This document shows, in pieces, positions 7,876-30,491 of a stretch of 64,000 bases of DNA. Location of the stretch: contig JAKBMB010000016.1 of assembly GCA_021831785.1 (NCBI GenBank), positions 62,001 to 126,000 of the forward strand, read 5' to 3'. Source of the DNA: Deltaproteobacteria bacterium (GTDB lineage Bacteria; Desulfobacterota; Binatia; Binatales; Binataceae). Numbering within the stretch: the stretch's first letter is position 1; each line of letters starts with the position of its first letter. The notes beneath the pieces are model-generated. The model was not told the origin of the DNA. It saw only the letters and a list, made by a program, of their open reading frames with translations, and did no database searches. Both the position numbers and the translations under genes were made by a program.

Positions 7876-8346
7876 GCCGGTCGTCCGGACCTTGTCTTCT
7901 TAGGGGCTTGATTCGAAGGCACGCAGCATACGACGCGCGTAGGGCAAACCCGGCCGCTGTTGTTTCCTACCTTCGTCTTACGCCTCTTGACGGAAGCCTT
8001 GAATCGTCTTAATAGTTTATACACGTAGCTAAACGGACACGTGACGTAATTGGTATTGGCTAGTTTTATCTGGGTTTAGTTAGCTTACGTTGGCTTATTC
8101 GAAGGTGAAGACAGAATAAATCACATAAGTAGTTAGACGGGCAAATGACCCGGTTGGTATTAGTTGATTCTATTTGGGTCCAGCTAGCTTATGTTGACTT
8201 ATTCGAAGCTCGAAACAGACGCGCGCGCGGTTGCGTTTGACGCGTGCAGGAACGGGAGCCTTGAAAGACTGGAACAAAATCAATCGGCTTTTTGGTCCCG
8301 CAGGTCCGGGGCTGGGCATAGTCGGCCGGGCTCCACGAAGGGATGC
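7876..8346. other. Leader region of the exopolysaccharide locus
   Basis: No credible gene. The stretch is visibly richer in A and T than its surroundings and holds an imperfect tandem repeat (8021-8114 and 8125-8218). Since the antiterminator gene at 8347 is the first gene of a long co-oriented locus, promoters and leader-RNA signals are expected here. I could not assign -35/-10 boxes with confidence. Confidence 0.45.
8021..8218 (+). repeat. Imperfect tandem repeat, two units of about 94 bp with 104-bp period
   Basis: Unit 1 (8021-8114) and unit 2 (8125-8218) align without gaps at an offset of 104 bases. Shared blocks include TTGGTATT, TAGCTTA and GACTTATTCGAAG-like sequence (GGCTTATTCGAAG in unit 1). 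Most differences are A/G and C/T transitions. The repeat sits 130 bases before the RfaH-like gene, so a doubled promoter, operator or leader element is plausible, though unproven. Confidence 0.65.
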
Positions 8347-8847
8347 ATGATGGCGAAATGGTATCTGCTGCGAACCAAGGCTCAGGAGGAGCGCAGGGCC
8401 CACGGTTCACTCAGCCGTTTCGCCCCCGAAGTGCTGCTGCCACTGACTAAGGTGCGTGTGCGGCGGTGGGGGCAGATGGTTGAATCGATCGCCCCTCTTT
8501 TCCCAACCTATCTGTTCGCTCTGGTCGATCTAGAGCTTCATTACGGGTACGTCCGCTATGCCCGAGGGGTGCGCGGAATAGTAAGCTTCGGGGCGCAACC
8601 GGCGGTTGTGTCGGAGTGGATCATCAGTGAACTCAAGCAGCGTTGTTCGCGCGGGTTGGTGGAGTTACCAAGGCGTCCGCTTTTGCCAAAGCAAGGTGTG
8701 ATGATAACCGATGGCCCGTTTCGGGAGTTCGAAGGGATTTTCGAGCGCCATCTTTCGGGTCCCGAGCGGGTGGCTGTTTTGCTGTCTGTGATGGGTTGCG
8801 GAGCACGGGTCGTGTTACCGGCAAGTATGGTTGAACCCCTGGCCTGA
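8347..8847 (+). CDS. NusG/RfaH-like transcription antitermination factor
   Basis: RfaH-type specialised NusG paralogues ride on RNA polymerase and stop early termination in long polysaccharide operons. The 166-residue product begins AKWYLLRTKAQEERRA, the NGN-domain signature, continues with LFPTYLFALVDL and YARGVRGIVSFG, and ends with a KOW-like C-terminal part (DGPFREFEGIF...ERVAVLL). I chose ATG 8347 (ATG 8350 is equally possible) because the NGN domain starts right there and GAAGGG precedes it; the frame is open further upstream but without similarity. First gene of the exopolysaccharide locus, fitting an antiterminator of this locus. Confidence 0.85.
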   Translation: MMAKWYLLRTKAQEERRAHGSLSRFAPEVLLPLTKVRVRRWGQMVESIAPLFPTYLFALVDLELHYGYVRYARGVRGIVSFGAQPAVVSEWIISELKQRCSRGLVELPRRPLLPKQGVMITDGPFREFEGIFERHLSGPERVAVLLSVMGCGARVVLPASMVEPLA

Positions 8848-9112
8848 GGGGTCGTTGCGGTTAGACGCGGCTCGGTGCCCAAATCTGTTGGTGGGGCCGA
8901 CCGTGAGGCGATCGAGGCAGTGCTTGTCTTGAGCCTTCCCTCGCCGGGTGGGACCGGCGGGAGCGTGCCGTTCGCGCAGGCGTGAATCGTCGCCGGAGTT
9001 GCCCAGCGTAGCTTGACCCGGCGAACGGCTACCCGAGCAAAGCGATCTGTGATATGCATATGAGGATGGCCAAGGACAGAACGATCTCCAAACGCGTAGA
9101 GGAGAGACTTCG

Positions 9113-9670
9113 ATGAGAAGAGCAGTATCCATGCTGTTAGGGGCTGTAGTCGTAGGGATGCTTGGCGCGCAACAGGCGTCTTGCGCGGATCTGGTCGGTG
9201 GGGTGGCGGACACGCAAGCGCGCCCCATTCCTGACGTCAAAATCGTAGTTAACGACATGACAGGCAAGGTTGTCGGCGAGGCGCAGACCGATTCATGGGG
9301 CCAGTATCGCATCGCCGGGCTTAGACCCGGAACCTACAACTACGTTTTGGACCCGGTTACCTCGGGCTTTAAAGGCGGAGATGCGGTTGCCTACCTCGGT
9401 CCTAACGGGATGACCACTAACTGGAACGTCTCCACCACAACGCCATCTGTCGCTTCGGGCAGCGAAGGCGGGGAATTGACGGTTCCGCACGACCCCCCCG
9501 GTTCATTGCCCCTGCGTCTAAGGGCAGACCCGGTGGGCGTTGACCGGCAAAAAATCCTTGAACAAATTGCGAAAGACCGACAAAGAATTTCGCAAGAAAT
9601 CCCGGCGGCGAGAGAGAAGCTCCTGGCAGAAATCCAAAAAATTCGCCAAGCTGTCAGTCCGAGCCTTTAA
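9113..9670 (+). CDS. Secreted Cna-B / carboxypeptidase-regulatory-like protein
   Basis: A 185-residue protein with a clear signal peptide (AVSMLLGAVVVGMLGAQQASCA, cleavage after about residue 25). Residues 26-90 form a Cna-B-like or carboxypeptidase-regulatory-like beta sandwich (DLVGGVADTQARPIPDVKIVV...GQYRIAGLRPGTYNYVLDP). The C-terminal 45 residues are charged and likely helical (QKILEQIAKDRQRI...KLLAEIQKIRQ), perhaps a short coiled coil. A strong ribosome site (GAGGAGAG) precedes the ATG. It lies between the antiterminator and the export lipoprotein gene, so a periplasmic or surface role in polysaccharide export is likely by context only. Confidence 0.7.
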   Translation: MRRAVSMLLGAVVVGMLGAQQASCADLVGGVADTQARPIPDVKIVVNDMTGKVVGEAQTDSWGQYRIAGLRPGTYNYVLDPVTSGFKGGDAVAYLGPNGMTTNWNVSTTTPSVASGSEGGELTVPHDPPGSLPLRLRADPVGVDRQKILEQIAKDRQRISQEIPAAREKLLAEIQKIRQAVSPSL

Positions 9671-10012
9671 ACTCGGCGCAGCGAAGTTCTCAACCAACCG
9701 TCAAATAGTTGCGCCGGCCGCATCAGCCGCAACGTCACCCGTTGGCGCGTGGGTAGCATGATCAGCCGTTGGACCGCGGTCGGTTCGGTCCACGCTGAGT
9801 AAGGGTTTCACCGCTTCCAGGGCTATCGCCAGCTGCGGCCGCTCGCTCGCTCTCTGCGTGCGCAAGCCTCGGAGCTTGACGCAACTGTGGAGACCGCGCA
9901 GCAACGCCTACTATCACCGCTACCTTCAAGTTCAACACCCAACGGAACATCGGCGAAAAGTCTGGGCGGCGGCGGGTCCTCGTGCAAGCCTGCCTAATAC
10001 AAGGGCGTTCCC
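9671..10012. other. Intergenic stretch before the export lipoprotein gene
   Basis: I see no gene, repeat or convincing terminator in this 342-base stretch. Reading frames across it lack family motifs and any coding-like start. Confidence 0.4.
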
Positions 10013-11302
10013 ATGAGCCTTTGTGACGCGCGGGGTGCGAGCCGATGGAAGAAATTCGTGCGGTGCTATCTCTTGTTCGCGCGACATCATCGCGCGCCGT
10101 CGATTCTGTGGGCCAAGCTGTTCGCCCTGGCGCTGGCGTGTTGGTGGGCGAGCGCCTGCAGCCAGAGTGCGGCCCCCGAAAGGACCAGCCAAAGATCAGA
10201 GAGACTCGAAGCCGCGCCGGTGGGTGGGAGCACCGGAAATAAGGGTAGGCTAGAAGACCTGCGCGTGCAGCGCAGCAAAGATGCCTTCTCAAATAAATTG
10301 GCGATCGGTCCAGGGGACGTAATCAAGGTAACGGTGCCCGGTGTTCCCGAGCTCGACAGGTTCAAAGTTCGTGTTTCAGCGGACAACACGATTTCACTGC
10401 CGCTGGCGGGCGTTGTGCCGGTTAGTGGCATGACGGAAGAGGCCGTGAGAGAAGCGCTTTACAAGCGGCTCGAAAAACCCATGAAAAACCCGGATGTGCA
10501 GGTCTTCGTCGACGAATACCACAGCCGACAAGTGGCGGTTGTGGGTATGGTGCAGAAGCCGGGGCTGCACAGCATAACCAGCCGCACTGACACCATCCTC
10601 GATATGATAGGCCGGGCCGGCGGCATGACCGAGAACGCGAGCTCTCGGATCCTTTTTATCCCGGCATCTTCGTCCACAAGTTTCCAGCAGCTGGCCGTCG
10701 CAAAGACTGCGGCGGCATCCGCCGAAGAGGCTCCCGGCGCAGTCGAGCCGATGCGCTCGGCTTCGAACGGGCGCAAGCGCCAGTCGGCGGACAAGCCCGA
10801 CCGAGTAGCGCCCGAGCCGATCCGAGGGAACTCGTTGCCCGCCTCCAGCGCGGGTCAAAGTCGGCTGCTGTTGCTACCGGGGGCAATCGATCCGATCGAG
10901 ATTGACCTGACAAACGCCGCACGTGAAAGCGAGCTCGACGTTCCGGTGCGGCCGGGCGACACAATCATTGTGCCCGCAGCGGGAGAGGTCATGGTCGACG
11001 GGTGGGTGGCTAATCCCGGCGCTTTCCGCATCGTGCCGGGAATGACTGCGCTGAGCGCGGTCTCAGCCGCAGGCGGCGCGCTGTTCAGTCAGATGGCTGA
11101 GGTGCTGCGGACCAATCCCCACGGCAGCCGGAGCTCGATACCGATTGACCTGGCCAAGGTAAAAGCTGGAGAGGAACCCGATGTTCCGGTACAGGCGGGC
11201 GATGTTGTTTTCGTAAAGCGTTCAGCGACCGGCGCCATCCCATATGCGTTCTATGAGATCTTCACGAAATTTGGTGCGGGCGTGTTCATGCCAGTGCCCT
11301 GA
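10013..11302 (+). CDS. Wza-like outer-membrane polysaccharide export lipoprotein (PF02563/SLBB)
   Basis: Wza-type proteins form the outer-membrane channel of Wzx/Wzy-dependent export. The 429-residue product has a hydrophobic helix and lipobox (CWWASAC, Cys near residue 49), after an unusually long cationic N-terminus. Residues about 97-185 are the export domain (IGPGDVIKVTVPGVPELD, VRVSADNTISLPLAG, MTEEAVREALYKRL, NPDVQVFVDEY). Two SLBB-type segments follow: VAVVGMVQKPGLHSI...GGMTENAS and VMVDGWVANPGAFRIVPGMTALSAVSAAGG. Between them is a low-complexity insert (about 225-290). ATG 10013 is the only in-frame ATG before the lipobox. The BY-kinase gene follows after 8 bases. Confidence 0.88.
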   Translation: MSLCDARGASRWKKFVRCYLLFARHHRAPSILWAKLFALALACWWASACSQSAAPERTSQRSERLEAAPVGGSTGNKGRLEDLRVQRSKDAFSNKLAIGPGDVIKVTVPGVPELDRFKVRVSADNTISLPLAGVVPVSGMTEEAVREALYKRLEKPMKNPDVQVFVDEYHSRQVAVVGMVQKPGLHSITSRTDTILDMIGRAGGMTENASSRILFIPASSSTSFQQLAVAKTAAASAEEAPGAVEPMRSASNGRKRQSADKPDRVAPEPIRGNSLPASSAGQSRLLLLPGAIDPIEIDLTNAARESELDVPVRPGDTIIVPAAGEVMVDGWVANPGAFRIVPGMTALSAVSAAGGALFSQMAEVLRTNPHGSRSSIPIDLAKVKAGEEPDVPVQAGDVVFVKRSATGAIPYAFYEIFTKFGAGVFMPVP

Positions 11303-11310: not shown

Positions 11311-13617
11311 GTGCAAGAACTGTCCCCATACTTCATTCAGCGCGAGCCTTATCCAGGCTCGCCGACCGGCTATAGCGCATCGCCTGCCGAAGAGCCTGGG
11401 CTTCGCGACTATTGGGTCGTAATCCGTAAACACCTGCGCCTCATTGGAGCATTGTTCCTAGGCGCGGTGGGCCTTACCGCCCTGGTGGTTTTCAATCTCA
11501 CGCCGGTCTACACGGCGCAGAGCATCTTGCTGATCGAATCCCAGACGCCCCGGGTTTTGGACCCAAGGGAACCAGCCACCGAGCCGCCGCCATCGGCGGA
11601 TCACGACTACTACAAGACACAGTACGACATTCTCAGGAGCCGCGGTCTCGTGGCGAATGTGATTAGCGAGTTGAACCTTGCCGACGAGCCACTTTTCAGT
11701 GAAAACGGTTCGGCGAAGGGGCTGATATCGGAATGGTGGAGCGGGTTCAGAGGCCGGCTTAAACAGCTCCTTGAGCCGCCGGCCAATGTGGTGGAAGACT
11801 CGGAAATGTCGGGAGTGCCGTCCGGTGTCATCGACGCGTATTTGGAAAGACTCCAGATCGAACCGCGATTTGGCACAGAGCTGGTGGTGGTGGCTTTCAG
11901 CACCCCCGATCCCGAGCTTTCGGCCCGGATCGTAAACGCGCACGTCGGCGCTTACATCCACCGCGGCATGGAGCTCAAGGCTGATGCGGCAAAGAACGCG
12001 GGACAGTTCTTGTCGGGTAAGCTCACTGAGCTCAAGGACCGGGTGGAGAAATCGGAAGCAGCGCTGAACGCCTACCGGCGCGAGCACGGGGTGATCACCT
12101 TCTCGCTGAGTGAAAATAGCCGGGGCGAAATGCTGGAGCAGCGGCTTACAAACCTCAACAACATTATCGCCAAGATACAAGCGGAACGCATCGCGCTTGA
12201 GGCGCAACATGAGCTGATTCGCAGGGGCGAGGCGGATTCGCTGCCGGCTGTGATGCAAAACTCGCTCATTCAGACCCTTAAACAGCAGGTGGCGCAGCTC
12301 GCGGCCCAATACGCGGCTATGCGCAACCAGTTCAATTCGGGCTACTATCAACCGCTGGATAACCTCAAGGCAAAGCTGGACCAAAGCCGCACGCAACTGG
12401 CGCAGGAAATCAATCGTGCGGCGCATGAGGTCGAATCCGAGTACAGTGCCGCAACCGCGCGGGAGCGGATGCTGGAGCAGGAAATTGCGAGCGTCAAGTC
12501 ACAGGCGCTCGCCCTGAACGACGCGTCGCTACAGGATGCGGTGCTGGTACGCCAGGTAGATGCAAGCCGCAATCTCTACAAGAGCGTCCTTGAGCGCGTG
12601 CGCGAACTGGACGTTTCGGCTGACGCCCCGGCTTCGAACGTCTCGGTGGTGGACCGGGCCGCAGCGCCGCACGGCCCCTCGAGCCCGAAAAAGCTTTTTA
12701 GCCTTGAACTTAGTGGTTTTCTAGGACTTATCGGCGGGCTCGGCCTCGCCTTCTTCTTGGAATTTCTCGACGATCGGCTCAAAAGTTCCGAGGAGATCGA
12801 GCGTGAGCTTCAGCTCCCGAGTCTCGCGTTGGTGCCGGACTTCAGAAAACTCGTTTACAGCGGCTACGGGCGGTCTTTGGTCGGGAAACAGGCCGCAGAG
12901 GTGCCGGAGGTGAGCGCGAAGAAATACGGCACCGAAGAGGTCATGGTATCGCCGCAAGGCCGGTCACTCGCAGGCGGGATTTATCATACGATCTGCACGG
13001 CGCTGCTATTTTCACGGGCTGGTAAAACACCGAACAGCGTATTGATCACGAGCGCCGTGGAAAGCGAGGGCAAGACGGTGACGGCGCTCAACGTGGCGAT
13101 AGCCTTCGCGCAGATGGGCGGTAGGGTGTTGCTGGTTGACGCCGACCTCCACAAGGCGCGATGCCATAAAATCCTCGGCCTCGAAAATCATTCGGGGTTG
13201 AGCGACGTACTCACCGGTCAAAAGCAGCACGAAGAGGTCATCCACCAGACCGCAACGGGCTTGTTTTTTCTAAGCGGCGGGTCGGACTGTCCGAATCCGA
13301 CCGCGCTGCTGGGTTCTACTACGATGCGCGATCTGCTTGTCCGCCTGTGCGAGGAATATGATCGCGTGGTGCTCGACTCGCCGCCGGTGATGCCGGTCGG
13401 TGATGCGACCGCGCTGGCGGCCTTGGCTGACGGTGTACTTCTGATCGCCGGCGCCTCAACTTCCAAGAGAATAGTGCGACAGGCCTGCACACGACTCCGG
13501 CACGTAGGGGCGAAGATTTTCGGGGTCGTTCTGAACCGTGTCGACGCGGCGAGTGTCGATTTTTATTACTACAATCCCTACAAGTCGTCTTATTACGGCA
13601 AAGATTCAGCGCAATAA
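11311..13617 (+). CDS. Wzc-like polysaccharide co-polymerase with BY-type tyrosine kinase domain
   Basis: These inner-membrane proteins set chain length and drive export through cycles of tyrosine phosphorylation. The 768-residue product has a Wzz domain with a first membrane helix (LIGALFLGAVGLTALVVF, about 47-65), a long coiled-coil periplasmic part (about 220-430), a second helix near 470-490, and a cytoplasmic kinase. Walker A is SAVESEGKT with Lys588, Walker A' is VLLVDADL, Walker B is VVLDSPPV. The tail holds a tyrosine cluster (FYYYNPYKSSYYGK), the usual autophosphorylation site. Start is a GTG 8 bases after the export lipoprotein gene. The stop TAA (13615-13617) is in frame with the next gene. 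Confidence 0.92.
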   Translation: MQELSPYFIQREPYPGSPTGYSASPAEEPGLRDYWVVIRKHLRLIGALFLGAVGLTALVVFNLTPVYTAQSILLIESQTPRVLDPREPATEPPPSADHDYYKTQYDILRSRGLVANVISELNLADEPLFSENGSAKGLISEWWSGFRGRLKQLLEPPANVVEDSEMSGVPSGVIDAYLERLQIEPRFGTELVVVAFSTPDPELSARIVNAHVGAYIHRGMELKADAAKNAGQFLSGKLTELKDRVEKSEAALNAYRREHGVITFSLSENSRGEMLEQRLTNLNNIIAKIQAERIALEAQHELIRRGEADSLPAVMQNSLIQTLKQQVAQLAAQYAAMRNQFNSGYYQPLDNLKAKLDQSRTQLAQEINRAAHEVESEYSAATARERMLEQEIASVKSQALALNDASLQDAVLVRQVDASRNLYKSVLERVRELDVSADAPASNVSVVDRAAAPHGPSSPKKLFSLELSGFLGLIGGLGLAFFLEFLDDRLKSSEEIERELQLPSLALVPDFRKLVYSGYGRSLVGKQAAEVPEVSAKKYGTEEVMVSPQGRSLAGGIYHTICTALLFSRAGKTPNSVLITSAVESEGKTVTALNVAIAFAQMGGRVLLVDADLHKARCHKILGLENHSGLSDVLTGQKQHEEVIHQTATGLFFLSGGSDCPNPTALLGSTTMRDLLVRLCEEYDRVVLDSPPVMPVGDATALAALADGVLLIAGASTSKRIVRQACTRLRHVGAKIFGVVLNRVDAASVDFYYYNPYKSSYYGKDSAQ

Positions 13618-13785: not shown

Positions 13786-16443
13786 ATGGAGGCGGTGATT
13801 TTTCTGCTCGCCGCCGCCTGGATGTTGAGGCTCCTGCTTATTGAAGCGGGCACGTTCGGATTGCGCGGCGGGGTCCTAAGCACAGTGTTGCCGGTTGCGC
13901 TTCTCGCCGGCCTGGTGGCTTTTCAATTGGCGCCGCTACCACCCGCGTTCGAGCGTATTATTTCCCCATCGACGTTTGAGCTCTACCAAAAGAGCTTGCC
14001 GGGTTGGCCGGAGCGGCCGGTCTATAACACACCGCTACCGGTCAGGGCGCATTCAGCAGATGAAGTGGTTCTGCTCCCGAGCCGAAGCGAGGTCGCCTTA
14101 GGCGCTCGCATCCCATTTGCTACGAATGGCGAGCAGGAGGCCTCCCCGCCAAACTTGGGCCATAGCCTCGGAAAGAAAATCATTGCCATCTGGCGTCCGC
14201 TTTCGGTGGCTGCATCGCTCACCCGGCCGGCCCTGCTCAAGCTTGTTTCGTACCTGTGCCTGTTCCTTTTGGTAGCGTCGTATCCCTTCGGCGAAAGCGT
14301 TCAACGGGGCTTTGGCCGAAGGCTGCTGCAAGCCGCGCTACTGGCCGGCGTTGTGGTCGCAACGCTTGCACTGGTTGAGCGGGCTTTTCCCAACGGGAAA
14401 GCGCTTTGGGTTTTTGTTCCATATGACTGGGGAAAAGGGGACCCATGGGGCTTGCGTGCAACGGGGCCGTTCGCCAACCCCGACCATCTCGCCAATTACC
14501 TGAACCTTGTACTACCGATTGCCTTGGTGGGGTTCTTCCTGCCCGCTGCTCTCACTACCCGGCGTCCCAGAGCAACGCGATTTTCCTGCGCGGCAGCGGT
14601 CATTCTCATAGCCGGCGCCCTTCTCTTAAGTTCTTCGCGTGGCGGATGGCTGGGCGCGCTGGTTGGTTTTGCAGTTCTGGCGGGGCTCTGGCCTCGGACA
14701 ACCCAACACGGTCGTTTTCCCCGCGCGGCCGGAATGGCTGCGGGCGCGAGCTTGGGACTGTTTGTACTACTGGTGCTTTTGTTTGTTGGCCCCGGGGGCC
14801 GGACCCAAGTCGATGTACGTCTTAAGGCAACGGTAACGCAGGACAGTCTTGTGGCCCGCCAGAAGTCGGCTGAGGTTTCTCTGAGGATGGTGCGGGATTT
14901 TCCGCTCTTCGGCGTTGGGCTCGGCTGCTGGCCGGAAGTCTTTCCTCGCTACCGTAAGCCGCCCTGGTTGCCGGTGTTCTGGAACGCTACGCATAACGAC
15001 TACGTTCAGATAGCCAGCGAAACGGGCCTGCTGGGCTTTGGCCTACTGGTTTGGTTCTTCGCTGCCGCGCTTGGCCAAGTTTGGCGCGGCATACGCGTGC
15101 TCAAGCCCGAAGTTGCGGCGTTGGTGACCGCATGCGTTGCCGGCATAGGCGCCGCCGCGGTGCATGAATTTGTCGACTTTCCCCTCCAGATTCCGGCCAA
15201 CGCCCTGCTGTCGACGGTGTTGCTGGGTCTTGCGTTGCGTCTGACGGGTCATGAGCGTTTGCAGCCGTCTGGCAGCGGTGGCAGAAAGACGAAACTGATA
15301 TGCGCGTTTGGACTGATTTCAGCCCTTGCGCTGACCGTTGCGGCGGTCACGCAGAAAAAGGTTCCCTATCCATACGACTTGAAACAGCCGGCGACTTTGG
15401 CGCAAGCCTACTCCCTGGTCAACGCGCATCCGGCCAACGCGAGCGTCCACCTGACGCTGATAAGCGCCATGGGCGAAGGAGCACCGCTCAAGCGCCGAAT
15501 GGAGGAGGTCCGGGCGGCGGTTTGGCTTGAGCCAATAAACCCTCTGGCCCGCGACCTCTACGCGCAGACTCTGCTGCGAGCGAATGCTAGGGATCAAGCG
15601 CTAAACGAAATTACCCGCGCGGTATCTTACTCGCCGGCGCTCGACAGCCACTTCTATCTGGAGCCGAGAATGATTCCATGGCTCTCATCGGCAGAGCGAG
15701 AAGCGGTGGAGCAAGGCTTTCAGGCCGCGGTTGCCAATCGTTACGACGGCGCTGTTCAGAACTTCGCGAGTTACTACGACGTTCTCGGAAACTTCCCTGC
15801 CGAAGCCGCCGTGTATGAGAAAGCGGCGGCGAGCGCACAGGATCGCGCGCAGCGCGCAGAATATTTCGCAGAGGCCGGAACCGTATACGCGAAAGCCAGT
15901 GAGCCAAAGAAGGCCGAAGCGGCCTTGCGCTCAGCGGCAGCTTCGACGCCCGAAGACTCGACACCCTATGTAGAACTGGTCTTGCAGGTGTTCGCACCGC
16001 AGAAGAAAGTCGCGGCGGCAAAGGCCGCGGTCGCACAAGGGATAGAGCAGGGCGCTGACCCTTTCAAGCTCTACCTCGCGCTGGCCGCGGCGGCGCAGAC
16101 ATCGGGAGACAGCAGCGAGGCCCGAGAGGCGCTGCACAAGGCGGTGGCTTTGCGGCCCTCGAGCTTTGAAGCCGTAATGCGCATGGGTCTGCTGGAGCTT
16201 GCGAACAGCCGATTCGACCAAGCGGCGATCTGGTTGCAGAGGGCGACACGGCTCAATCCGGGTTCGGCTGACGCCTTCTACAACCTCGCGCTTGCCGATG
16301 AGGGCGCCTACGAATATTTCGCAGCCGACAAAGCTTATCAGCGGGCGCTTGGTCTTGCGCCAACCGACGCCGGCCTTAGGGCGCATTACGCTGCGTTCCG
16401 CCAGAAGCTCGCCCAAAGCGAGCGTGAAACGCTCAAGCCGTAG
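13786..16443 (+). CDS. O-antigen ligase/polymerase (Wzy_C family) with C-terminal TPR repeats
   Basis: A multi-pass membrane protein of at least 885 residues that would polymerise or ligate lipid-linked glycan units in the periplasm. The Wzy_C core is seen as TGPFANPDHLANYLNLVLPI and later GVGLGCWPEVFPRYR...ATHNDYVQIASETGLLGF, with the conserved His in HNDY. The last 320 residues form several TPR units (ALHKAVALRPSSFEAVMRMG, WLQRATRLNPGSADAFYNLA). The ATG at 13786 falls after what looks like the true first helix (WGVASLILFTPLAVGSVEPW); the frame is open back to 13618, directly after the kinase stop, but has no ATG, GTG or TTG there. The real start is therefore unclear. Confidence 0.85.
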   Translation: MEAVIFLLAAAWMLRLLLIEAGTFGLRGGVLSTVLPVALLAGLVAFQLAPLPPAFERIISPSTFELYQKSLPGWPERPVYNTPLPVRAHSADEVVLLPSRSEVALGARIPFATNGEQEASPPNLGHSLGKKIIAIWRPLSVAASLTRPALLKLVSYLCLFLLVASYPFGESVQRGFGRRLLQAALLAGVVVATLALVERAFPNGKALWVFVPYDWGKGDPWGLRATGPFANPDHLANYLNLVLPIALVGFFLPAALTTRRPRATRFSCAAAVILIAGALLLSSSRGGWLGALVGFAVLAGLWPRTTQHGRFPRAAGMAAGASLGLFVLLVLLFVGPGGRTQVDVRLKATVTQDSLVARQKSAEVSLRMVRDFPLFGVGLGCWPEVFPRYRKPPWLPVFWNATHNDYVQIASETGLLGFGLLVWFFAAALGQVWRGIRVLKPEVAALVTACVAGIGAAAVHEFVDFPLQIPANALLSTVLLGLALRLTGHERLQPSGSGGRKTKLICAFGLISALALTVAAVTQKKVPYPYDLKQPATLAQAYSLVNAHPANASVHLTLISAMGEGAPLKRRMEEVRAAVWLEPINPLARDLYAQTLLRANARDQALNEITRAVSYSPALDSHFYLEPRMIPWLSSAEREAVEQGFQAAVANRYDGAVQNFASYYDVLGNFPAEAAVYEKAAASAQDRAQRAEYFAEAGTVYAKASEPKKAEAALRSAAASTPEDSTPYVELVLQVFAPQKKVAAAKAAVAQGIEQGADPFKLYLALAAAAQTSGDSSEAREALHKAVALRPSSFEAVMRMGLLELANSRFDQAAIWLQRATRLNPGSADAFYNLALADEGAYEYFAADKAYQRALGLAPTDAGLRAHYAAFRQKLAQSERETLKP

Positions 16444-16493: not shown

Positions 16494-17789
16494 GTGCGAG
16501 TCCTGGTGTTGGGGATTAACTATTGGCCCGAGCAGACCGGTATTGCGCCGTTTACGACCGGACGCTGCGAATATCTGGCCGCTCGCGGCCACGAAGTGAC
16601 CGTCTGTACGGCACTGCCGTATTACCCCGAGTGGCGGGTGCCACCCGCCTACCGGCGGCGGTTCTTGGTCCGCGAGGAGCGCAACGGCGTAACGATTCTG
16701 CGCTCTCGCATCTATGTACCAGAGCATGCAAATCCATTGCGGCGAGTCCTGCACGAAGGCTCATTCGTGCTCGCCTCACTGCTGCGAGCTTTTGGGCAGA
16801 GAAAACCCGACCTGATGATGGTGGTGTCTCCGCCTCTGGGGCTTGCGTTTCCGGCACTGATGTTGAGCCGCCGATGGCGTGTCCCCTACGTCTTCCACGT
16901 GCCCGATCTACAGCCCGACACCGCACTCGATCTCGGAATGCTCAGCGCAGGACGGGTGGCACGTGTACTGTACGCGGTTGAGCGGCTTGCGTACCGCAAC
17001 GCGGCCCTGATCTCTACGCTCACAGAAGCGATGCGCCAGCGGATTATCTCGAAGGGAATAGCAACGGATAAGGTGAAGCTGTTTTCCGATTGGGCCGCCC
17101 CTGAGCTTTTCACAATCCCGCTTGAAGATGGAGGAGCGCGTTTCCGCGCAGAGCACGGTTTCAACGGTGCGTTTCTCGTCCTTCACGCGGGGAACATGGG
17201 GGTCAAACAGGGTCTAGATGTGGTACTTGGCGCGGCCGAGCTTTCGCGCGCCGCCGGCGGACTGACCTATCTTCTGGTGGGCGATGGCGCCGCCCGGCCG
17301 ACGCTGGAGGCGCGCGCCGGGGCTGCGAAGCTGTCCAATGTCCATTTCATGCCGCTTCGGCCGCGCGCCGAGTTCATGGACTTGCTGGCCGCCTCCGACG
17401 CCTGTCTCATCACGCAGCAGCGGGTGGTTGCGGACATCGTATTTCCGTCGAAGACGCTGACCCTGATGGCGGCCGGCCGTCCGATAATCGCGTCGGTAAG
17501 CGCTGGCAGCGAGGTGGCGCGCGTCGTTAGGGAGGCGCGCGCCGGGATCGTCGTGGAACCGGAAGACGCTCACGCGCTTTTGCAGGCGATTAGCACGCTG
17601 CGCAGCGAGCCGCGGACGAGACGCACCATGGGCGTGCGCGCCCGCGGCTATGCGCGGGTGCGATGGGATCGCGGCCGAATTTTAGCCGCCACCGCGGCGG
17701 AGCTTGCGGCAGTGGCGAGACCATCAACCGAACCGCGCCGCGAGCGGCCAGGCGAAATCCCGGCTCAGCCGGTTGAAGAGGAGAACTGA
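16494..17789 (+). CDS. GT4 glycosyltransferase, WcaI-like
   Basis: A 431-residue GT-B glycosyltransferase. The N-terminus (VLVLGINYWPEQTGIAPFTTGRCEYLAARGHEV) and the ALPYYPEWRVPPAYRRR stretch are typical of the WcaI group of colanic-acid type transferases. The C-terminal half has LHAGNMGVKQGLDVVL and ADIVFPSKTLTLMAAGRPIIASVSAGSEVARVV, the GT4 nucleotide-sugar binding region. GTG 16494 is chosen because the conserved strand starts at once and GAGGA lies about 14 bases upstream. The epimerase gene begins 2 bases after its stop, so they share a transcript. Donor and acceptor sugars are unknown. Confidence 0.9.
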   Translation: MRVLVLGINYWPEQTGIAPFTTGRCEYLAARGHEVTVCTALPYYPEWRVPPAYRRRFLVREERNGVTILRSRIYVPEHANPLRRVLHEGSFVLASLLRAFGQRKPDLMMVVSPPLGLAFPALMLSRRWRVPYVFHVPDLQPDTALDLGMLSAGRVARVLYAVERLAYRNAALISTLTEAMRQRIISKGIATDKVKLFSDWAAPELFTIPLEDGGARFRAEHGFNGAFLVLHAGNMGVKQGLDVVLGAAELSRAAGGLTYLLVGDGAARPTLEARAGAAKLSNVHFMPLRPRAEFMDLLAASDACLITQQRVVADIVFPSKTLTLMAAGRPIIASVSAGSEVARVVREARAGIVVEPEDAHALLQAISTLRSEPRTRRTMGVRARGYARVRWDRGRILAATAAELAAVARPSTEPRRERPGEIPAQPVEEEN

Positions 17790-17791
17790 CT

Positions 17792-18784
17792 GTGGGAACA
17801 AAAGTGCTTGTCACCGGTGCGGGCGGTTTTATCGGCCATCACCTCATAAGCTACCTCAAAAGATCGGGTTACTGGGTGCGCGGCGTGGATGTGAAATATC
17901 CGGAATACGCGCCGAGCGTGGCCGACGAATTCGTGCTGCTCGACTTACGCCGCATCGAGAATTGCCTGCAAGCGACTGAGAACATAGAGGAGGTTTATGC
18001 TCTGGCTGCCGATATGGGCGGCATGGGCTTCATTTCAGAACATCATGCTCAGATTCTTCGCGACAATTCGCTGATCAACATTCATAGCCTGGAAGCGGCG
18101 CGGCAAAACGGCGCCAAACGCTATCTCTACTGTTCGTCGGCTTGCGTCTATCCCGAGTACCGACAGACTGAGATCGACGTCACACCGCTGCGCGAGGAGG
18201 ATGCCTATCCGGCACAGCCGCAGGACGCTTACGGCTGGGAGAAGCTGATTACCGAGCGGCTTTGCCGCCACTATCGCGAGGATTACGGGCTTGAGACTCG
18301 TATCGTCCGCTTCCACAACATCTTCGGCCCGCTCGGCACTTGGCAGGGCGGGCGCGAAAAAGCGCCTGCCGCGCTCTGCCGCAAGGTCGCAGTAGCCAAG
18401 CTTACCGGCAGCCACGAGATTGAGATCTGGGGCGATGGCGAGCAGACCCGCTCGTTCTGCTACATCGACGACTGCGTGGCCGGCATGCACAAGCTGATGC
18501 GCTCGGACTATCGCGAGCCGCTGAACCTCGGCCAGGACCGTCTGGTTACGATAAACCAACTCGCCGATATGATCGCGTCGATCGCGGGGGTGCGCGTCAT
18601 GAAGCGTCATGTCCCCGGCCCACAGGGCGTGCGCGGGCGTAACTCCGACAATACGCGCCTGCGAGAGGTGCTCGGGTGGGAACCGCAGATAAGCCTGGAA
18701 GAAGGCCTCGCCCGGACCTACCGCTGGATCGAACACCAGGTGGCAGCCACCCGCGCCCCCTCGGAGCATACGTCAGGCACTTAA
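17792..18784 (+). CDS. GDP-mannose 3,5-epimerase-like SDR enzyme
   Basis: GDP-mannose 3,5-epimerase converts GDP-D-mannose to GDP-L-galactose and is best known from plants. The 330-residue product has the NAD motif GAGGFIGHHL, the family-typical YALAADMGGMGFI, the catalytic region SSACVYPEY with its cysteine, QDAYGWEKL with the Tyr-x3-Lys pair, and FGPLGTWQGGREKAPAALCRK with the second catalytic lysine. These motifs are much closer to GME than to generic UDP-glucose epimerases. The GTG start is 2 bases after the WcaI-like gene. It probably supplies an L-galactose-type donor for the polysaccharide; the substrate is inferred from motifs. Confidence 0.85.
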   Translation: MGTKVLVTGAGGFIGHHLISYLKRSGYWVRGVDVKYPEYAPSVADEFVLLDLRRIENCLQATENIEEVYALAADMGGMGFISEHHAQILRDNSLINIHSLEAARQNGAKRYLYCSSACVYPEYRQTEIDVTPLREEDAYPAQPQDAYGWEKLITERLCRHYREDYGLETRIVRFHNIFGPLGTWQGGREKAPAALCRKVAVAKLTGSHEIEIWGDGEQTRSFCYIDDCVAGMHKLMRSDYREPLNLGQDRLVTINQLADMIASIAGVRVMKRHVPGPQGVRGRNSDNTRLREVLGWEPQISLEEGLARTYRWIEHQVAATRAPSEHTSGT

Positions 18785-18949: not shown

Positions 18950-20365
18950 ATGCTTGTAGCTCGTAGACAGCTTCTCCGCCGAGCTTTGGCGCTCAGCGAC
19001 GCCGCTAATCTTGCCGCGAGCTTTGCCGGGGCCTATTTCGTCGCGGGCTTTCTATTCGGCCGCAACTTCGTCTCGTTTGCCGGCTATGCATGGCTGCTCG
19101 CGCTGATTGTGCCCATATGGCTCGCCTGCCTGCGCGTTTTTGGCCTCTACAACTCGGCCGCCTACGCCTCGCGGTACGGATTGCTGAACCGCCTGATGCG
19201 GGTGCAGTTTACTGCTGGCCTCGTGCTGCTCAGTCTCATGTATCTGACGCGCTCCGAGAACATCAGCCGCCTGTTGCTGCAGACCTTCCTGGCCGTCAGT
19301 TTCATCTTCCTGGCCGCGCAGAAGTTCGCGCTGCGCGCTTACCTTAACAACGCCCGTGGGCGGACATCTGCGCAGCGGTCCAAGGTCCTGCTGGTGTCGG
19401 TTCCGGCAGCCGCCGAGCGTTATCTGCGGCTGGCCCGCATGCAGGCCTGGGTGATGGCCGACGTAGTCGGGATGCTTACGCCCAGCGCGCCTAACGGCCG
19501 CGCCGCAGGTCCGGCCGTCCCACGCATCCTAGGCGCCGCTGACGACCTCCCGATGGTGCTGGACGAGACTATTGTCGATGAGGTCGTGGTGGTGTTGCCG
19601 CTGGAAAAGCCTCTGCTGGAGCGGCTCAGCCAATGCTGCTCGGTGCGGGGAATCCTCATGCGCATGTTGGTCGAAGTGCCGTCGCCTGCTATCGGGGTGT
19701 GGCACGCCGAGCATTTTGCCGAGGGCGCGTTTTTGTTCTCCCTCGCGACGATTCCGCAGAATACCTTCCATCTGCTCGTAAAACGAGTGGTCGACGTATG
19801 CGGCGCCGCCATAGGACTCATGCTGTTCGGCATTGCCTATATTTGGTACGGGATGCGTCTGCAGCGGGAAACCGGGGACTCGGCGCTGTTCCGCCAGTGG
19901 CGCGTGGGACAGAACGGGCGCCGCTTCACGCTGTATAAGTTTCGCACCATGTGCGCCGATGCGGAGCAGCTCAAGGCCGAGTTGAGCAGGCACAATGAGA
20001 TGAATGGCCCGATCTTCAAGCTCCGGGACGACCCGCGCATAACCCCCACCGGGCGCAAGCTGCGCCGCCGCCACCTGGACGAGCTGCCGCAGTTCTGGAA
20101 CGTTCTGCGGGGTGAGATGAGTCTGGTGGGGACGCGGCCGCCGACCGAGGATGAGACCGCCGTTTACGCGGAGCATCATCGTCGCCGCCTCAGCATGAAG
20201 CCCGGGCTGACCGGGCTCTGGCAGCTTAGCGGCAACGGCGCGGTCAAGGACTTCGAGCAGGTGGTGAAGCTCGACTGCGAATACATCGACAATTGGTCGC
20301 TGGGGCTGGATTTCAAAATCCTGGCCAAAACGGTAGCCAAGGTGATGCGCGCCGATGGCTGGTAA
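18950..20365 (+). CDS. Undecaprenyl-phosphate sugar phosphotransferase (WbaP/WcaJ type, polyisoprenylphosphate hexose-1-P transferase)
   Basis: This enzyme starts each repeat unit by moving a sugar-1-phosphate onto undecaprenyl phosphate. The 471-residue protein has four N-terminal membrane helices (about 10-130), a CoA-binding-like middle domain (about 140-270) and the catalytic C-terminal PF02397 domain with its re-entrant helix (KRVVDVCGAAIGLMLF). Catalytic motifs are YKFRTMCADAE, PIFKLRDDPRITPTGRKLRR, LDELPQFWNVLRGEMSLVGTRPP and KPGLTGLWQLSG. The ATG at 18950 precedes the first helix. Its end overlaps the next gene by 11 bases. Confidence 0.92.
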   Translation: MLVARRQLLRRALALSDAANLAASFAGAYFVAGFLFGRNFVSFAGYAWLLALIVPIWLACLRVFGLYNSAAYASRYGLLNRLMRVQFTAGLVLLSLMYLTRSENISRLLLQTFLAVSFIFLAAQKFALRAYLNNARGRTSAQRSKVLLVSVPAAAERYLRLARMQAWVMADVVGMLTPSAPNGRAAGPAVPRILGAADDLPMVLDETIVDEVVVVLPLEKPLLERLSQCCSVRGILMRMLVEVPSPAIGVWHAEHFAEGAFLFSLATIPQNTFHLLVKRVVDVCGAAIGLMLFGIAYIWYGMRLQRETGDSALFRQWRVGQNGRRFTLYKFRTMCADAEQLKAELSRHNEMNGPIFKLRDDPRITPTGRKLRRRHLDELPQFWNVLRGEMSLVGTRPPTEDETAVYAEHHRRRLSMKPGLTGLWQLSGNGAVKDFEQVVKLDCEYIDNWSLGLDFKILAKTVAKVMRADGW

Positions 20366-24264: not shown

Positions 24265-25626
24265 ATGCAACCTTTGATCCGTCCCATCTGGCGCCGGATG
24301 CGCGCGGCGACCGCCTTCGGCGCGGATACCGCGCTTACCGTGGGCACCAACGCGCTACTTGCCGCCGAAGGCATGGTGAGCGGCATCATGGCGGCGCGCC
24401 TGCTCGGCCCCAAGGGACGTGGAGAGCTTGCCGCGATCCAGGCCTTCTCCGGCTTTATCGCGGCGGTGGCGATACTTGGGATGACGGAAGCGGTGGTCTA
24501 TTATTGCGCGCGAAACCCGCAAAGGTCCGGCCGTTACATCGGTTCGGCCGCTACGATCGCGCTGCTTGCGTGCGTTCCGGTTCTGCTCGGCGCGTATCTC
24601 GCGATGCCGATCCTGCTCGCCGCCCAGTCAGCGAGCGTGGTCGGCGCGGCGCGCTGGTATTTGCTGATCGGGCCGGTCTACGCGCTGGTGGCCGTGCCCG
24701 CTCATTCTTTGCGCGGCCGCGGCGACTTCCTGGCGTGGAACGGTGTGCGGCTTGCCCCCAACCTGGTCTGGATCGTCGTGCTCATGGCGGCTTGGTTCGT
24801 CTCTGTCCGCAGCGCCGCTATCGTTGCCGCGGCGTACGTCGTGGGCCAGGGACTGCTCCTATTTCCGGTCCTATACGTCGTCGCAAAACGGGTTAACGGC
24901 CCGTTTCGGCCATCGCCCCGGGACTGGGGCGCAATGGTCAGGTACGGGCTTCCGTGCGCCCTGACCAGCCTACCCCAGTTGCTTAACCTGCGGCTCGATC
25001 AAATTGCGATGGCGGCGCTGCTCCCGGCGCGCCAGCTTGGCACCTACGCTGTCGCCGTGGCGTGGAGCGGAGCCGCCGCGCCGCTTCTGGGCGCGCTCGG
25101 GGCGACATTGTTGCCTGCGATCGCTTCGCGCGCCGATCGCGGGGCAAGCGCGCGCAGGTTTTCCGAGGGAGCACGCCTGGCGTCGCTCCTCGCGCTGAGC
25201 ACCTGCGCGCTGCTGATGGCGCTTACTCCGTTCGCCGTGGTCGTGCTGTTCGGCCAAGCCTATCGCGCCGCGATACCGGCCGCGCTGGTGCTCGTGCCGG
25301 CGGGCTCGATCCTGGCTCTGAACTCCGTGCTCGAAGAAGGGCTCCGCGGCCTCGGCCATCCCTATCCGGTGCTATATGCGGAACTTACCGGACTCGTGAT
25401 GATGGTGGTAGGACTCACGCTGACGCTTGGGCCATTCGGGATCATGGGTGGCGCAGTATCGTCACTGATCGGCTATTCGACCGTATCCGTCGCGCTACTG
25501 GTAAACGCTCGGCGGCTCATCGGGGTCTCGCCCGCCGCGTTGCTCTGGCCGCGCATCGAGGAACTTCAAGTCGGGCTGCGCCGGGTTGAATCGTTGGTTC
25601 GCGCGCTGGCGGCGCCGGCCGACTGA
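24265..25626 (+). CDS. Wzx-like polysaccharide flippase (MVF/MOP superfamily)
   Basis: A 453-residue protein with about 12-14 membrane helices. The start GTNALLAAEGMVSGIMAARLLGPKGRGELAAIQAF is the standard opening of oligosaccharide flippases (LGPxGRGELA). Later segments such as YGLPCALTSLPQLLNLRLDQIAMAALL and PLLGALGATLLPAIASRA agree. It would move lipid-linked repeat units to the periplasmic face. It is the only flippase seen in the locus. Confidence 0.9.
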   Translation: MQPLIRPIWRRMRAATAFGADTALTVGTNALLAAEGMVSGIMAARLLGPKGRGELAAIQAFSGFIAAVAILGMTEAVVYYCARNPQRSGRYIGSAATIALLACVPVLLGAYLAMPILLAAQSASVVGAARWYLLIGPVYALVAVPAHSLRGRGDFLAWNGVRLAPNLVWIVVLMAAWFVSVRSAAIVAAAYVVGQGLLLFPVLYVVAKRVNGPFRPSPRDWGAMVRYGLPCALTSLPQLLNLRLDQIAMAALLPARQLGTYAVAVAWSGAAAPLLGALGATLLPAIASRADRGASARRFSEGARLASLLALSTCALLMALTPFAVVVLFGQAYRAAIPAALVLVPAGSILALNSVLEEGLRGLGHPYPVLYAELTGLVMMVVGLTLTLGPFGIMGGAVSSLIGYSTVSVALLVNARRLIGVSPAALLWPRIEELQVGLRRVESLVRALAAPAD

Positions 25627-25646: not shown

Positions 25647-26918
25647 GTGGTGCGAGGCTCGGTCATCGTGGCGCATCCGGGAAGGCAGCACTCCTATGAA
25701 GCCGCGCTTGCGATGCAAGAGGCAGGGCTTCTCGCGAGCTACATAACCGGAATCTACTACAAACCCGAGAGCATGTGCGGCCGCGCCGTGCGGCTCATAG
25801 GGCCCGCCGAGCGAGGAATGAGGCGCCGTTATCAGGACGGCTTGGCCTGCGAACTCGTTCGCCAGTATCCGCTGGGCGAGCTGCTCTACCTGGGCGCCAG
25901 CCGCCTGCGGCCTTTTGCAAGATATGCGCCGGGGATCGTCCGCTGGCGAAACGATCGGTTCGACCGGTTCGTCGGCCGCGTCGTCGAACGCGAGCGGCCC
26001 ATGGGCGTCATCTGCTACGACACCTGCGCACTCCAAACCTTCAGGAAGGCGGGCGATCTCGAGGTCCTGCGGGTGCTCGACCAGAGCGTCGGCCATTGGC
26101 GAACGCTTGCGGCAATGATGCGGGAGGAGGCCGCGCTGCAGCCCGATTTTGCCGACAGCCTGCCGCTTAAGGCGCCCGAGCGGTTTCTCGCGCAGTGCAC
26201 CGAGGAAGCGCTCCTCGCGGACGTAATCCTGGCGGGGTCGCAGTTTGTGAAGGACACGATGGTGCGCCACGGAGTTGAGCCCTCGCGCGTTGCCGTGATT
26301 CCTTACGGAGCCGACATCGAGCGGTTCCGGCCGGTGAGGCGAGCGAAGGACGGGCGCTTCCGCGTGCTTTTCGTCGGCCAGTTGAGCCAGCGCAAGGGGA
26401 TCAAGTACCTGCTCGAGGCGGTCGCCGCGCTTGGGATTCCCGGGCTGGAACTATTGCTCGTGGGCGGCGTGGTAGGGAGCGGGCGCGGGCTTGCGGCCTA
26501 CCGCGGCCATTTCGCGCACGTATCGAACGTGCCGCATCACGAGGTGCAGCATCATTTTCAGCAGGCCGACATCTTCGTCTATCCCTCGCTTTACGAGGGT
26601 TCGGCGATCGCCATATATGAGGCGCTCGCCTCCGGCCTGCCGGTCGTTACGACATCCAACAGCGGGTCGGTAGTAAGGAACGGGGTCGAAGGATTTATTG
26701 TGCCGATTCGCGACGTTGAGACGCTTAAGGAGAAAATCCTGCTGCTCTACGAGGATCGCGAACTGCGCGCGGCGATGGGGACAAACGCCCGCAAACGCGC
26801 CGAGCAGTTCACCTGGGCCGCCTATCGGAAAAAGGTAGGCGCTCTGCTCGGAAGCATCCTGATAGAGAAAGGCCTCGGCGATGGCCGCCGGCCGATGCAC
26901 TCAAAGCCGGCGCCTTGA
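25647..26918 (+). CDS. GT4 glycosyltransferase
   Basis: A 423-residue GT-B enzyme starting at GTG 25647 after GGAGAAGAAGAG. The N-terminal domain opens SVIVAHPGRQHSYEAALAMQEAGLL. The C-terminal domain has VLFVGQLSQRKGIKYLLEAV, ADIFVYPSLYEGSAIAIYEALASGLPVVTTSNSGSVV with the GT4 E-x7-E element, and VEGFIVPIRDVETLKEKI. It follows the flippase after 20 bases. Sugar specificity cannot be read from sequence. Confidence 0.9.
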   Translation: MVRGSVIVAHPGRQHSYEAALAMQEAGLLASYITGIYYKPESMCGRAVRLIGPAERGMRRRYQDGLACELVRQYPLGELLYLGASRLRPFARYAPGIVRWRNDRFDRFVGRVVERERPMGVICYDTCALQTFRKAGDLEVLRVLDQSVGHWRTLAAMMREEAALQPDFADSLPLKAPERFLAQCTEEALLADVILAGSQFVKDTMVRHGVEPSRVAVIPYGADIERFRPVRRAKDGRFRVLFVGQLSQRKGIKYLLEAVAALGIPGLELLLVGGVVGSGRGLAAYRGHFAHVSNVPHHEVQHHFQQADIFVYPSLYEGSAIAIYEALASGLPVVTTSNSGSVVRNGVEGFIVPIRDVETLKEKILLLYEDRELRAAMGTNARKRAEQFTWAAYRKKVGALLGSILIEKGLGDGRRPMHSKPAP

Positions 26919-26961
26919 GGGCGCGACAACAGCATCAGGTAGAGGCCCCGGTTCAGTCACA

Positions 26962-27864
26962 ATGCCGTTTTGGAGGACCCACTTCGGGTCTGAGGAGGAG
27001 AACCGCCGTGTGGAGCTTGAGCGGCGTTTGCGGGCTTTTTATTCCACAGTTAACAACTACGAAGCCTATCGCGAGGAAAACTGGAAACCGGAATTTTGGG
27101 CACCTATCCGCTTGGCGATTGAGAATTCCCTTTCTCACCGCTCTTGTAAAGTTCTAGAAATCGGTGCGGGCAGGACAGGATTTGCGAATTATTTGGGTGG
27201 TATCAGAAGCCGGGTGGAATTCCATGTTCAAGACGTCACGGGACGAAACAATGAATATTTGCGCACGGTTGCAGACAAGGTCTGGATCTGTGATGTCACA
27301 CAAATCCAGGAGAGTTACGACGTCATCTTCAGCACCTTTGTCTACGAGCACATGACGGCACCCAAAGCCGCCCTCGATTATATCTTAATGATGCTCAGAC
27401 CCTCGGGCAGTCTTTTTATCGCCTCGCCCCGATATGACTTTCCAGGTTATCTAAGCCCCTCCGCTCGGCACCTCTCCCGAGTAAAGCGGCTCACGATAGT
27501 TATGGAGCTCATGCTGAGACGAGCGCGGGTCATCTCCGGTGGTCCAGCGCTCTTCTTGCTTCATTTCGATCCGGCGGTCTTTCACCGGCCGTGGTTCCGG
27601 GACGCGGATGCCGTGCATTGGCCGTCGATCTGGGACCTGAAACGTTTTCTTCATGAGCGTGGCGGTGCGGTGATGGAGCGGTTGCGAATAGAGCCGGAAG
27701 GGCTAAGACACGCCTTCTGGGCACGCTTCCTGTTGCTGTTCGTTCGGATTCGCCTCCTTCCTACGCCGGCTCTGCCGTCTGCGCAGCACGTGAGCGGCAA
27801 GGCATCGACTGACCAGAGAAGCGACTCGAACTGGAACAGCGGAAATAGAGAATGCCCGAACTGA
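26962..27864 (+). CDS. Class I SAM-dependent methyltransferase
   Basis: A 300-residue product with KVLEIGAGRTGFANYLGG (motif I), VWICDVTQIQESYDVIFSTFVYEHMTAPKAAL, and LRPSGSLFIASPRYDFPGYLSP. I chose ATG 26962 because the conserved part starts shortly after; the same frame is open back to 26881 inside the previous gene. Base composition is noticeably less GC-rich than in the flanking genes. It overlaps the following glycosyltransferase by 13 bases. Confidence 0.85.
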   Translation: MPFWRTHFGSEEENRRVELERRLRAFYSTVNNYEAYREENWKPEFWAPIRLAIENSLSHRSCKVLEIGAGRTGFANYLGGIRSRVEFHVQDVTGRNNEYLRTVADKVWICDVTQIQESYDVIFSTFVYEHMTAPKAALDYILMMLRPSGSLFIASPRYDFPGYLSPSARHLSRVKRLTIVMELMLRRARVISGGPALFLLHFDPAVFHRPWFRDADAVHWPSIWDLKRFLHERGGAVMERLRIEPEGLRHAFWARFLLLFVRIRLLPTPALPSAQHVSGKASTDQRSDSNWNSGNRECPN

Positions 27865-29021
27865 AGGTTGCGGTCGTCTTCATCAATTTTGGGCCGTATC
27901 ATTTCGCTCGCGCGAAAGCTCTGGGCGAAACCGAGGGCGTTTCGCCATTTTTTATTCAGCTTGCAAGGTCGATAGTCACCCATTCATGGCAAGTGCCAGA
28001 CAAATACCGCTCTTCGATAAGGCTAATCACGCTCTCCGAACTTCCGTTCGAGCGCTGCGGTTATCTTGAGTTATCGCGGCTGCTCCGGAAGGCGCTGGAC
28101 GAGATCGATCCGGCAGTCGTCGTAACCGCATCGTTTCGTCCTTTCATCATGTTGAGCGCGGCGCGCTGGGCGCATTTCCGCAACCGGCGCACCGTTCTCT
28201 TCTATGAGACAACGCCGTGGGACAAGCGCCGCCGCGCGCCGGTGGAGACGGTTAAGCGCTGGACGCTCAGGCAATATTACGATGCCGCCTTCGTTGGGGG
28301 CAGTGTGCATCGGGACTACCTGAAGGAACTCGGGATGCCCGAGCACCGCATCTGGCAGCCCTACGACGTGGTGGACAACGATTACTTCGCAGCCAAGGCA
28401 GCCCTGGTCCGCGCCGATCCCGAACGCTGGCGGAAAACACTGGGCCTGCCCGACCGCTACTTTTTGTACGTGGGCCGCTACGCGCCGGAAAAGAACCTGC
28501 TGCGGCTGCTCGAAGCGTATGCACTCTACCGAGAGAGTTCCGCTGCCGGATGGTCATTGGTGCTGGTGGGCGACGGCCCGCAGCGCTCCGAGCTTGAGCG
28601 CTACGTCTCGAGCACCGGGCTTGAGGGCGTATTCTTGAAGCACTTCGCGCAGCTCGAGAATCTCCCCGCTTACTACGCGCTGGCCGACTGTTTTGTATTG
28701 CCCAGCACGGTTGACCCGTGGGGACTGGTCGTCAACGAGGCGATGGCTTGCGGCCTTCCGGTCATTGTCTCGAAGCTCTGCGGCTGCGTCCCGGAGCTGG
28801 TCCAGGAGGGCGAGAACGGTTTTCACTGCGATCCGTATGACACGCTTGCGATCGCGGCCCGGCTCGGACGAATGGCGTCTCTTGACACAATCTCTTTACA
28901 AAACATGGGTGATCTCTCAAGGAAAATCATTTCCGGGTTCACGCCCCGGATATGGGCCAATAATCTCGCCCAATGCGTAAAGGTTACGGCCGCGGACAAT
29001 TGGCGAGGGACCGGCTCGTGA
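27852..29021 (+). CDS. GT4 glycosyltransferase
   Basis: A 389-residue GT-B enzyme: VAVVFINFGPYHFARAKAL at the start, then the C-terminal FLYVGRYAPEKNLLRLLEAYALYR, LVLVGDGPQRSELERYV, and DCFVLPSTVDPWGLVVNEAMACGLPVIVSKLCGCVPELV. The last of these is the GT4 donor-site signature. It overlaps the preceding methyltransferase by 13 bases and the following polymerase by 4, so translation is coupled across the three. Confidence 0.9.
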   Translation: MPELKVAVVFINFGPYHFARAKALGETEGVSPFFIQLARSIVTHSWQVPDKYRSSIRLITLSELPFERCGYLELSRLLRKALDEIDPAVVVTASFRPFIMLSAARWAHFRNRRTVLFYETTPWDKRRRAPVETVKRWTLRQYYDAAFVGGSVHRDYLKELGMPEHRIWQPYDVVDNDYFAAKAALVRADPERWRKTLGLPDRYFLYVGRYAPEKNLLRLLEAYALYRESSAAGWSLVLVGDGPQRSELERYVSSTGLEGVFLKHFAQLENLPAYYALADCFVLPSTVDPWGLVVNEAMACGLPVIVSKLCGCVPELVQEGENGFHCDPYDTLAIAARLGRMASLDTISLQNMGDLSRKIISGFTPRIWANNLAQCVKVTAADNWRGTGS

Positions 29022-30451: not shown

Positions 30452-30491
30452 GAACTTCCCATGCGGCAGCCGCATGTGTCAGTAGGCTATC

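Follow-up and report, generated by a model that had tools for sequence, protein, structure and literature searches.

We propose that an open reading frame (ORF) in the 64,000-nucleotide stretch analysed here (the window) encodes a bacterial GDP-mannose 3,5-epimerase (GME, GM35E) and that the product of this enzyme serves the polysaccharide cluster in which the gene lies (Table 1). The identity of the ORF is very probable from its sequence, and we hold the reading as a whole with high confidence, leaving the WcaI step discussed below out of that judgement. The ORF has no internal stop and is a single copy in the genome; its GTG start follows the stop of a WcaI-like ORF by 2 bases, and a purine run, GAGGAG, stands just 5' of it.

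Table 1. Features of the GME gene and of the polysaccharide cluster around it (positions in the window; At, Arabidopsis numbering)
Feature	Position	Strand	Basis
NusG-like factor, cluster member	start 8191		
Wza-like polysaccharide export protein	10013-11302	+	Pfam
Wzc-like chain-length determinant / tyrosine autokinase	11311-13617	+	Pfam, NCBIfam
Wzy_C / O-antigen ligase-like polymerase or ligase, C-terminal TPRs	13786-16443	+	Pfam
WcaI-family GT4 glycosyltransferase, candidate user of GME product	16494-17789	+	NF007640, identity to WcaI
GME homologue, 330 aa, GTG start	17792-18784	+	score, residues, tree, fold
NAD-binding glycine motif GAGGFIG (GxxGxxG, residues 9-15)	17816-17836	+	alignment; meaning from PMC6678494
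S116 (triad Ser, At S143) and C118 (catalytic acid/base, At C145)	18137-18145	+	alignment; roles from PMC8787198
Y147 and K151 of YxxxK (At Y174, K178; sites mutated in 2c5a, 2c54)	18230-18244	+	alignment
K190, second acid/base (At K217; site mutated in 2c5e)	18359-18361	+	alignment
R283 (At R306, believed to make the catalytic Cys acidic)	18638-18640	+	alignment; role from PMC8787198, PMC6678494
Polyprenyl-phosphate hexose-1-phosphate transferase (WcaJ/WbaP-like)	18950-20365	+	PF02397, 202 bits
ORF without family, 464 aa	20355-21749	+	
Two methyltransferases	starts 22127, 23216		
Wzx-like flippase (Polysacc_synt)	24265-25626	+	Pfam
Five glycosyltransferases (25647, 27852, 31159, 32413, 33649)	within 25647-37221	+	
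Five methyltransferases (26881, 30492, 34767, 35354, 36358)	within 25647-37221	+	
ORF without family, 492 aa	28973-30451	+	

What identifies the ORF as a GME? In a phmmer search against PDB sequences the match to Arabidopsis GME (2c59, E 2.7e-117, 395 bits, query residues 3-324) is, as a sequence match, far beyond chance. The five best of the 131 matches are all GMEs, four of them Arabidopsis entries (392-395 bits, spanning residues 3-324) and the fifth the GME of Myrciaria dubia (8sg0, 385 bits, residues 4-322). Identity is 53% to Arabidopsis GME and 29% to E. coli Fcl, and the six other short-chain dehydrogenase/reductase (SDR) matches that the GME query finds in the same genome score 23-114 bits. 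Could the ORF instead be a GDP-L-fucose synthase (WcaG/Fcl), or another extended SDR misread as a GME? The best NCBIfam match is indeed the Fcl equivalog NF047922, no GME model being present among the best 25 NCBIfam matches, but its 139.6 bits fall far short of the cut-off of 500, and the best PDB match other than a GME, the GDP-fucose synthetase 1bsv, reaches 115 bits against the 395 of Arabidopsis GME. We regard such a misreading as very improbable; a fucose-synthase identity in particular we reject in view of score, residues and tree.

The residues in question are those of the active site. Aligned with Arabidopsis GME, the ORF retains each of the eight residues that have been assigned there to catalysis or to the substrate. 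The extended-SDR triad of Ser, Tyr and Lys is represented by S116, Y147 and K151, and the Cys/Lys acid/base pair with its acidifying Arg by C118, K190 and R283; the assignment of the catalytic acid/base Cys and the triad Ser follows descriptions of GME (PMC8787198; PMC6678494). The engineered Arabidopsis mutants K178R, Y174F and K217A align with K151, Y147 and K190 (Arabidopsis numbers in the PDB search rows are those of the literature plus 2). The Fcl family is described as having Cys/His and Lys where GME has Cys/Lys and Arg (PMC8787198), and in the three columns of C145, K217 and R306 E. coli Fcl carries C, H and K. The Lys and Arg of our ORF, standing where Fcl has His and Lys, thus speak against Fcl. 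Across 98 GME rows (the window, two plants and 95 loci) C145, Y174 and K178 are invariant, and S143, N203, K217, R243 and R306 are each kept in 97; these counts include L089, which is without three of the checked residues, L086, which has Thr for S143, and L106 and L108, each incomplete in one checked region. Stops were removed from translated rows; among the 80 contig rows L095 and L100 have one stop each, within the last seven residues. The four motifs that an earlier note had quoted as matching GME are all present in the ORF, and its identification is upheld by PDB score, residues, tree and fold alike.

The predicted fold points the same way. An AlphaFold2 model built from 39 sequences has a mean pLDDT of 90.3, and in a VIA-align comparison six plant GME entries rank first (Z 40.9-44.3), followed by UDP-glucose 4-epimerase (Z 37.2) and E. 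coli GDP-fucose synthetase (Z 35.5). The model superimposes on the solved GME 8sg0 with Z 44.3 and an rmsd of 1.5 over 318 aligned residues, and on the Arabidopsis GME entries with Z 43.7-44.0. Since all compared entries belong to one superfamily, it is the gap in Z, not its value, that is informative.

A quick IQ-TREE phylogeny of 102 rows set 97 GME rows, both plants included, against five outgroup SDRs, namely E. coli Fcl, E. coli GMD and three of the genome's six further SDR matches; the minus-strand SDR matches of the genome, L007 and L108 are omitted from it. A single branch separates the 97 GME rows from the five others (SH-aLRT 97), the outgroup branches being flagged by IQ-TREE as very long. 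The phylogeny that the earlier note had named as a check thus leaves the ORF apart from Fcl, GMD and three SDR paralogues, not in another SDR group. In a more careful tree of 51 rows the window belongs to a set of 25 (support 90/77) whose 24 other members come either from bacterial records or from genomes belonging to the window's phylum. The two plants form a long branch that shares a set of 11 rows with bacterial ones (86/97), and we are unsure of the position of this branch among the GMEs. L008 and L033, with end branches of 0, are apparently one gene counted twice. The sample is biased towards the window GME, because its 80 contigs were taken from the top of the list of matches to it.

How widespread are these enzymes? 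The species collection encodes at least 588 relatives (588 of the 590 pattern matches listed), and the best 80 contigs among the matches listed belong to records that bear the names of many bacterial phyla and, in one case, of an archaeon. Within the window's own phylum, matches at E 1e-80 or better occur in 15 of 395 genomes drawn, that of the window included; at E 1e-60, four plasmid records have a match. A count by Yin and co-workers in 2011 had already put the close homologues of plant GME at 43 in bacteria and 2 in archaea (PMC3220709). The label "plant-type", which the earlier note had attached to the gene, is therefore misleading: many bacteria encode relatives, and the plant rows make up a single branch whose position is uncertain. 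A recent transfer from plants finds no support, the nearest rows being bacterial with identities of up to 83% (82% full-length) against 53% to Arabidopsis. In one genome (G037:C4:118198-123081; L015, L023) a second GME-like stretch, with one internal TAG and 221 matched query residues, stands 3.3 kb from an intact copy.

The gene lies inside a Wzx/Wzy-type polysaccharide cluster. Such a setting had been suggested from the letters alone, and Pfam and NCBIfam matches of the neighbours to Wza, Wzc, Wzy_C, Wzx and glycosyltransferases bear it out. The transferase downstream of GME scores 331 bits with TIGR03025 (cut-off 296) and 267 with the WcaJ equivalog TIGR03023, under its cut-off of 411. The two ORFs without family gave no Pfam match at E 1e-3 and no NCBIfam match at E limits of 1e-3 and 1e-20, and a search of the window with Rfam at gathering scores gave no match. 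Upstream of the cluster, at 1991-5110 (+), lies an ORF of 1039 aa whose C-terminal part matches a protein O-mannosyltransferase domain (PMT, PMT_4TMC); just past it, an ORF at 37836-38966 (+) matches the N-domain of homogentisate 1,2-dioxygenase over the cut-off (39 bits) and the C-domain just under it (20.6 against 21).

We infer the activity, product and acceptor of the pathway, and the content of the polymer, as follows. GME with bound NAD+ would oxidise C4 of GDP-D-mannose by means of Y147, K151 and S116; the C118/K190 pair would epimerise C5 and C3, with R283 keeping C118 acidic; and re-reduction of C4 would give mainly GDP-beta-L-galactose and some GDP-L-gulose. This product would enter the Wzx/Wzy-type polysaccharide of the surrounding cluster. 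The WcaJ-like transferase would place the lipid-linked first sugar and so start the repeat unit, onto which, less surely, the WcaI-like transferase would move the L-sugar from GDP; the model for this last step is E. coli WcaI, which is thought to transfer L-fucose. The likeliest consequence would be L-galactose in the polymer, with L-gulose as the main rival.

The substrate is probably at hand. In the genome assembly (3.68 Mb, 96% complete) a homologue of mannose-1-phosphate guanylyltransferase, that is, GDP-mannose pyrophosphorylase (L024), lies outside the cluster on another contig (C26); PF00483 and PF22640 are over their cut-offs, and it matches PDB entries 2cu2 (188 bits) and 2x5s (180 bits). 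GMD is found as well (507 bits, cut-off 415), and no Fcl is recognised in this 96% complete genome, the best score with the Fcl model besides GME itself being 80 bits. As the pyrophosphorylase homologue and GMD are found and Fcl is not recognised, GDP-mannose is probably available in the cell and GDP-L-fucose probably absent.

Two other uses of the same enzyme have to be weighed. The cluster might use a side product, L-gulose or D-altrose, a reading that overlaps with our own and that we think rather unlikely. GDP-L-gulose and GDP-D-altrose are side products of GME and L-gulose is known in Thermoplasma lipids (PMC8787198), and BlmG, proposed to supply the L-gulose of bleomycin, is 42% identical to Arabidopsis GME (PMC6678494). 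Against it, L-galactose is the main product of plant GME and of a characterised bacterial enzyme, with an 80:15:5 equilibrium (PMC6678494). The WcaI-like neighbour, kin of an annotated L-fucosyltransferase, also argues against L-gulose, L-fucose being 6-deoxy-L-galactose. A role in ascorbate synthesis, as in the Smirnoff-Wheeler route of plants, would share the same first committed step, and a single partial match to the ALO domain does occur in the genome. However, that match spans just positions 197-257 of 258 (32 bits, cut-off 23) and lies on another contig, no ascorbate enzyme is recognised by Pfam among 30 ORFs of the window, and the GME gene sits within a polysaccharide cluster; we give this role very little credence. 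Our preferred reading remains a GME that provides an L-sugar for the polysaccharide.

Which transferase would use this sugar? The earlier note had pointed to a WcaI-like transferase beside GME, and the subfamily assignment confirms it: the upstream ORF scores 346 bits with NF007640, 'WcaI family glycosyltransferase' (cut-off 276), and 217.5 bits with the colanic-acid WcaI equivalog TIGR04007, well under the cut-off of 800. Over 405 aligned positions it is 34% identical to E. coli WcaI, with which the four other GT4s of the cluster align over only 56-133. In the stretch compared around GME, a WcaI-like region is present in 8 of 80 related loci and absent from 72; in seven of the eight it lies less than 1 kb from GME, against 1.4 expected if 9 segments were evenly spread. 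In one of these seven, L108, it is in the opposite orientation to GME. When four GT4s of the cluster were used as control queries, one of which (32413) had no assigned region, 4 of 21 fell within 1 kb of GME. The pair also recurs in two of six loci from genomes of the same phylum (L116, L117). Within 1 kb of GME, Wzc-like genes (13 loci) and sugar-transferase genes (10 loci) are commoner than WcaI-like ones and likewise exceed the even-spread expectation; the association of GME with polysaccharide genes thus extends beyond the link to WcaI, which is not a general one. The cut-off of NF007640 is reached by one of ten WcaI-like neighbours scanned.

Gene order around GME is weakly conserved. The succession of WcaI-like gene, GME and sugar transferase recurs in none of L115-L120, and L031 comes nearest to it, with WcaI 1.7 kb upstream and a transferase 317 bases downstream of GME. 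No family dominates among the neighbours (at most WecG, 8 of 71 downstream, and AAA_31, 13 of 75 upstream), in approximate scans of 80 loci that rest on greedy ORF picks on either strand. Fcl gives a match of 289-506 bits in three of ten genomes with the pair, and in the other seven the best match is GME itself; these genomes, which do not include that of L108, are of unstated completeness, and contig positions were compared by hand. Fcl is likewise missing from four genomes without the pair in the stretch compared, where the best matches (122-147 bits) are again GME itself, and its absence is thus not tied to the WcaI-GME pair. In L038, an Armatimonadetes record, the genes for gmd, fcl and GME and a WcaI-like gene stand in a row on the same strand, from upstream of 8001 to 10291, and GDP-L-fucose as well as GDP-L-galactose may be products of this one cluster. 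In L053 (9118-12126) the WcaI-like domain beside GME occupies the N-terminal part of an ORF of 1003 aa, perhaps a fusion.

The best candidate for using what GME makes is the neighbouring WcaI-like transferase, though we are less sure of this step. E. coli WcaI is annotated as a colanic acid fucosyltransferase; wcaJ, wcaE and wcaI are reported to act at the start of colanic acid synthesis, fucose being joined at the second and third steps (PMC12075129). Several fucosyltransferases accept GDP-L-galactose instead of GDP-L-fucose, and in the Arabidopsis mur1 mutant L-fucose is replaced by L-galactose (PMC8787198). We offer, as a tentative suggestion that may well prove wrong, that GME and the WcaI-like enzyme make up a module that recurs in bacteria and has L-galactose where colanic acid has L-fucose; the WcaI-like enzymes beside GME would then be dedicated L-galactosyltransferases, acting with GDP-L-galactose as donor on the first, lipid-linked sugar. 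In a limited look at open papers, titles and abstracts mentioned no bacterial WcaI-type enzyme dedicated to GDP-L-galactose, and titles and the starts of abstracts no bacterial polysaccharide with proven GME-made L-galactose.

How does this system compare with those already described? Among the closest is MfGM35E of Methylacidiphilum fumariolicum SolV, shown to be active in 2019 and about 50% identical to plant GME. Compared by its description, it resembles the window GME in being bacterial, in its GxxGxxG, Cys/Lys/Arg and YxxxK features, and in having an adjoining glycosyltransferase and a methyltransferase nearby; its authors linked it to LPS, and the window GME lies in a Wza/Wzc/Wzx-type cluster (PMC6678494). 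Arabidopsis GME has the same residues and the same fold at the identity given above, but shows GxxGxxA where the window GME has GxxGxxG and, when the two are aligned, is shorter by four residues after GREKAPAAFCRK; it serves ascorbate and cell-wall L-galactose (PMC8787198). BlmG and the GME of A201A biosynthesis are, by description, likewise bacterial and GME-like, acting for L-gulose or L-galactose, but belong to antibiotic clusters (PMC6678494). The E. coli colanic acid cluster gmd-fcl-gmm-wcaI (L114) also combines WcaI with a GDP-L-sugar made from GDP-mannose; there the sugar is L-fucose, made through Gmd and Fcl, whereas the window genome has GME and no recognised Fcl.

What does the finding mean? 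Bacterial GMEs are already known, and in other respects the finding confirms known biochemistry. A large family of at least 588 relatives now joins the few bacterial GMEs named in the literature, and a testable guess is offered as to the transferase that would use GDP-L-galactose in bacteria. An enzyme of the plant vitamin C pathway most likely makes, in this organism, L-galactose or L-gulose for a surface polysaccharide.
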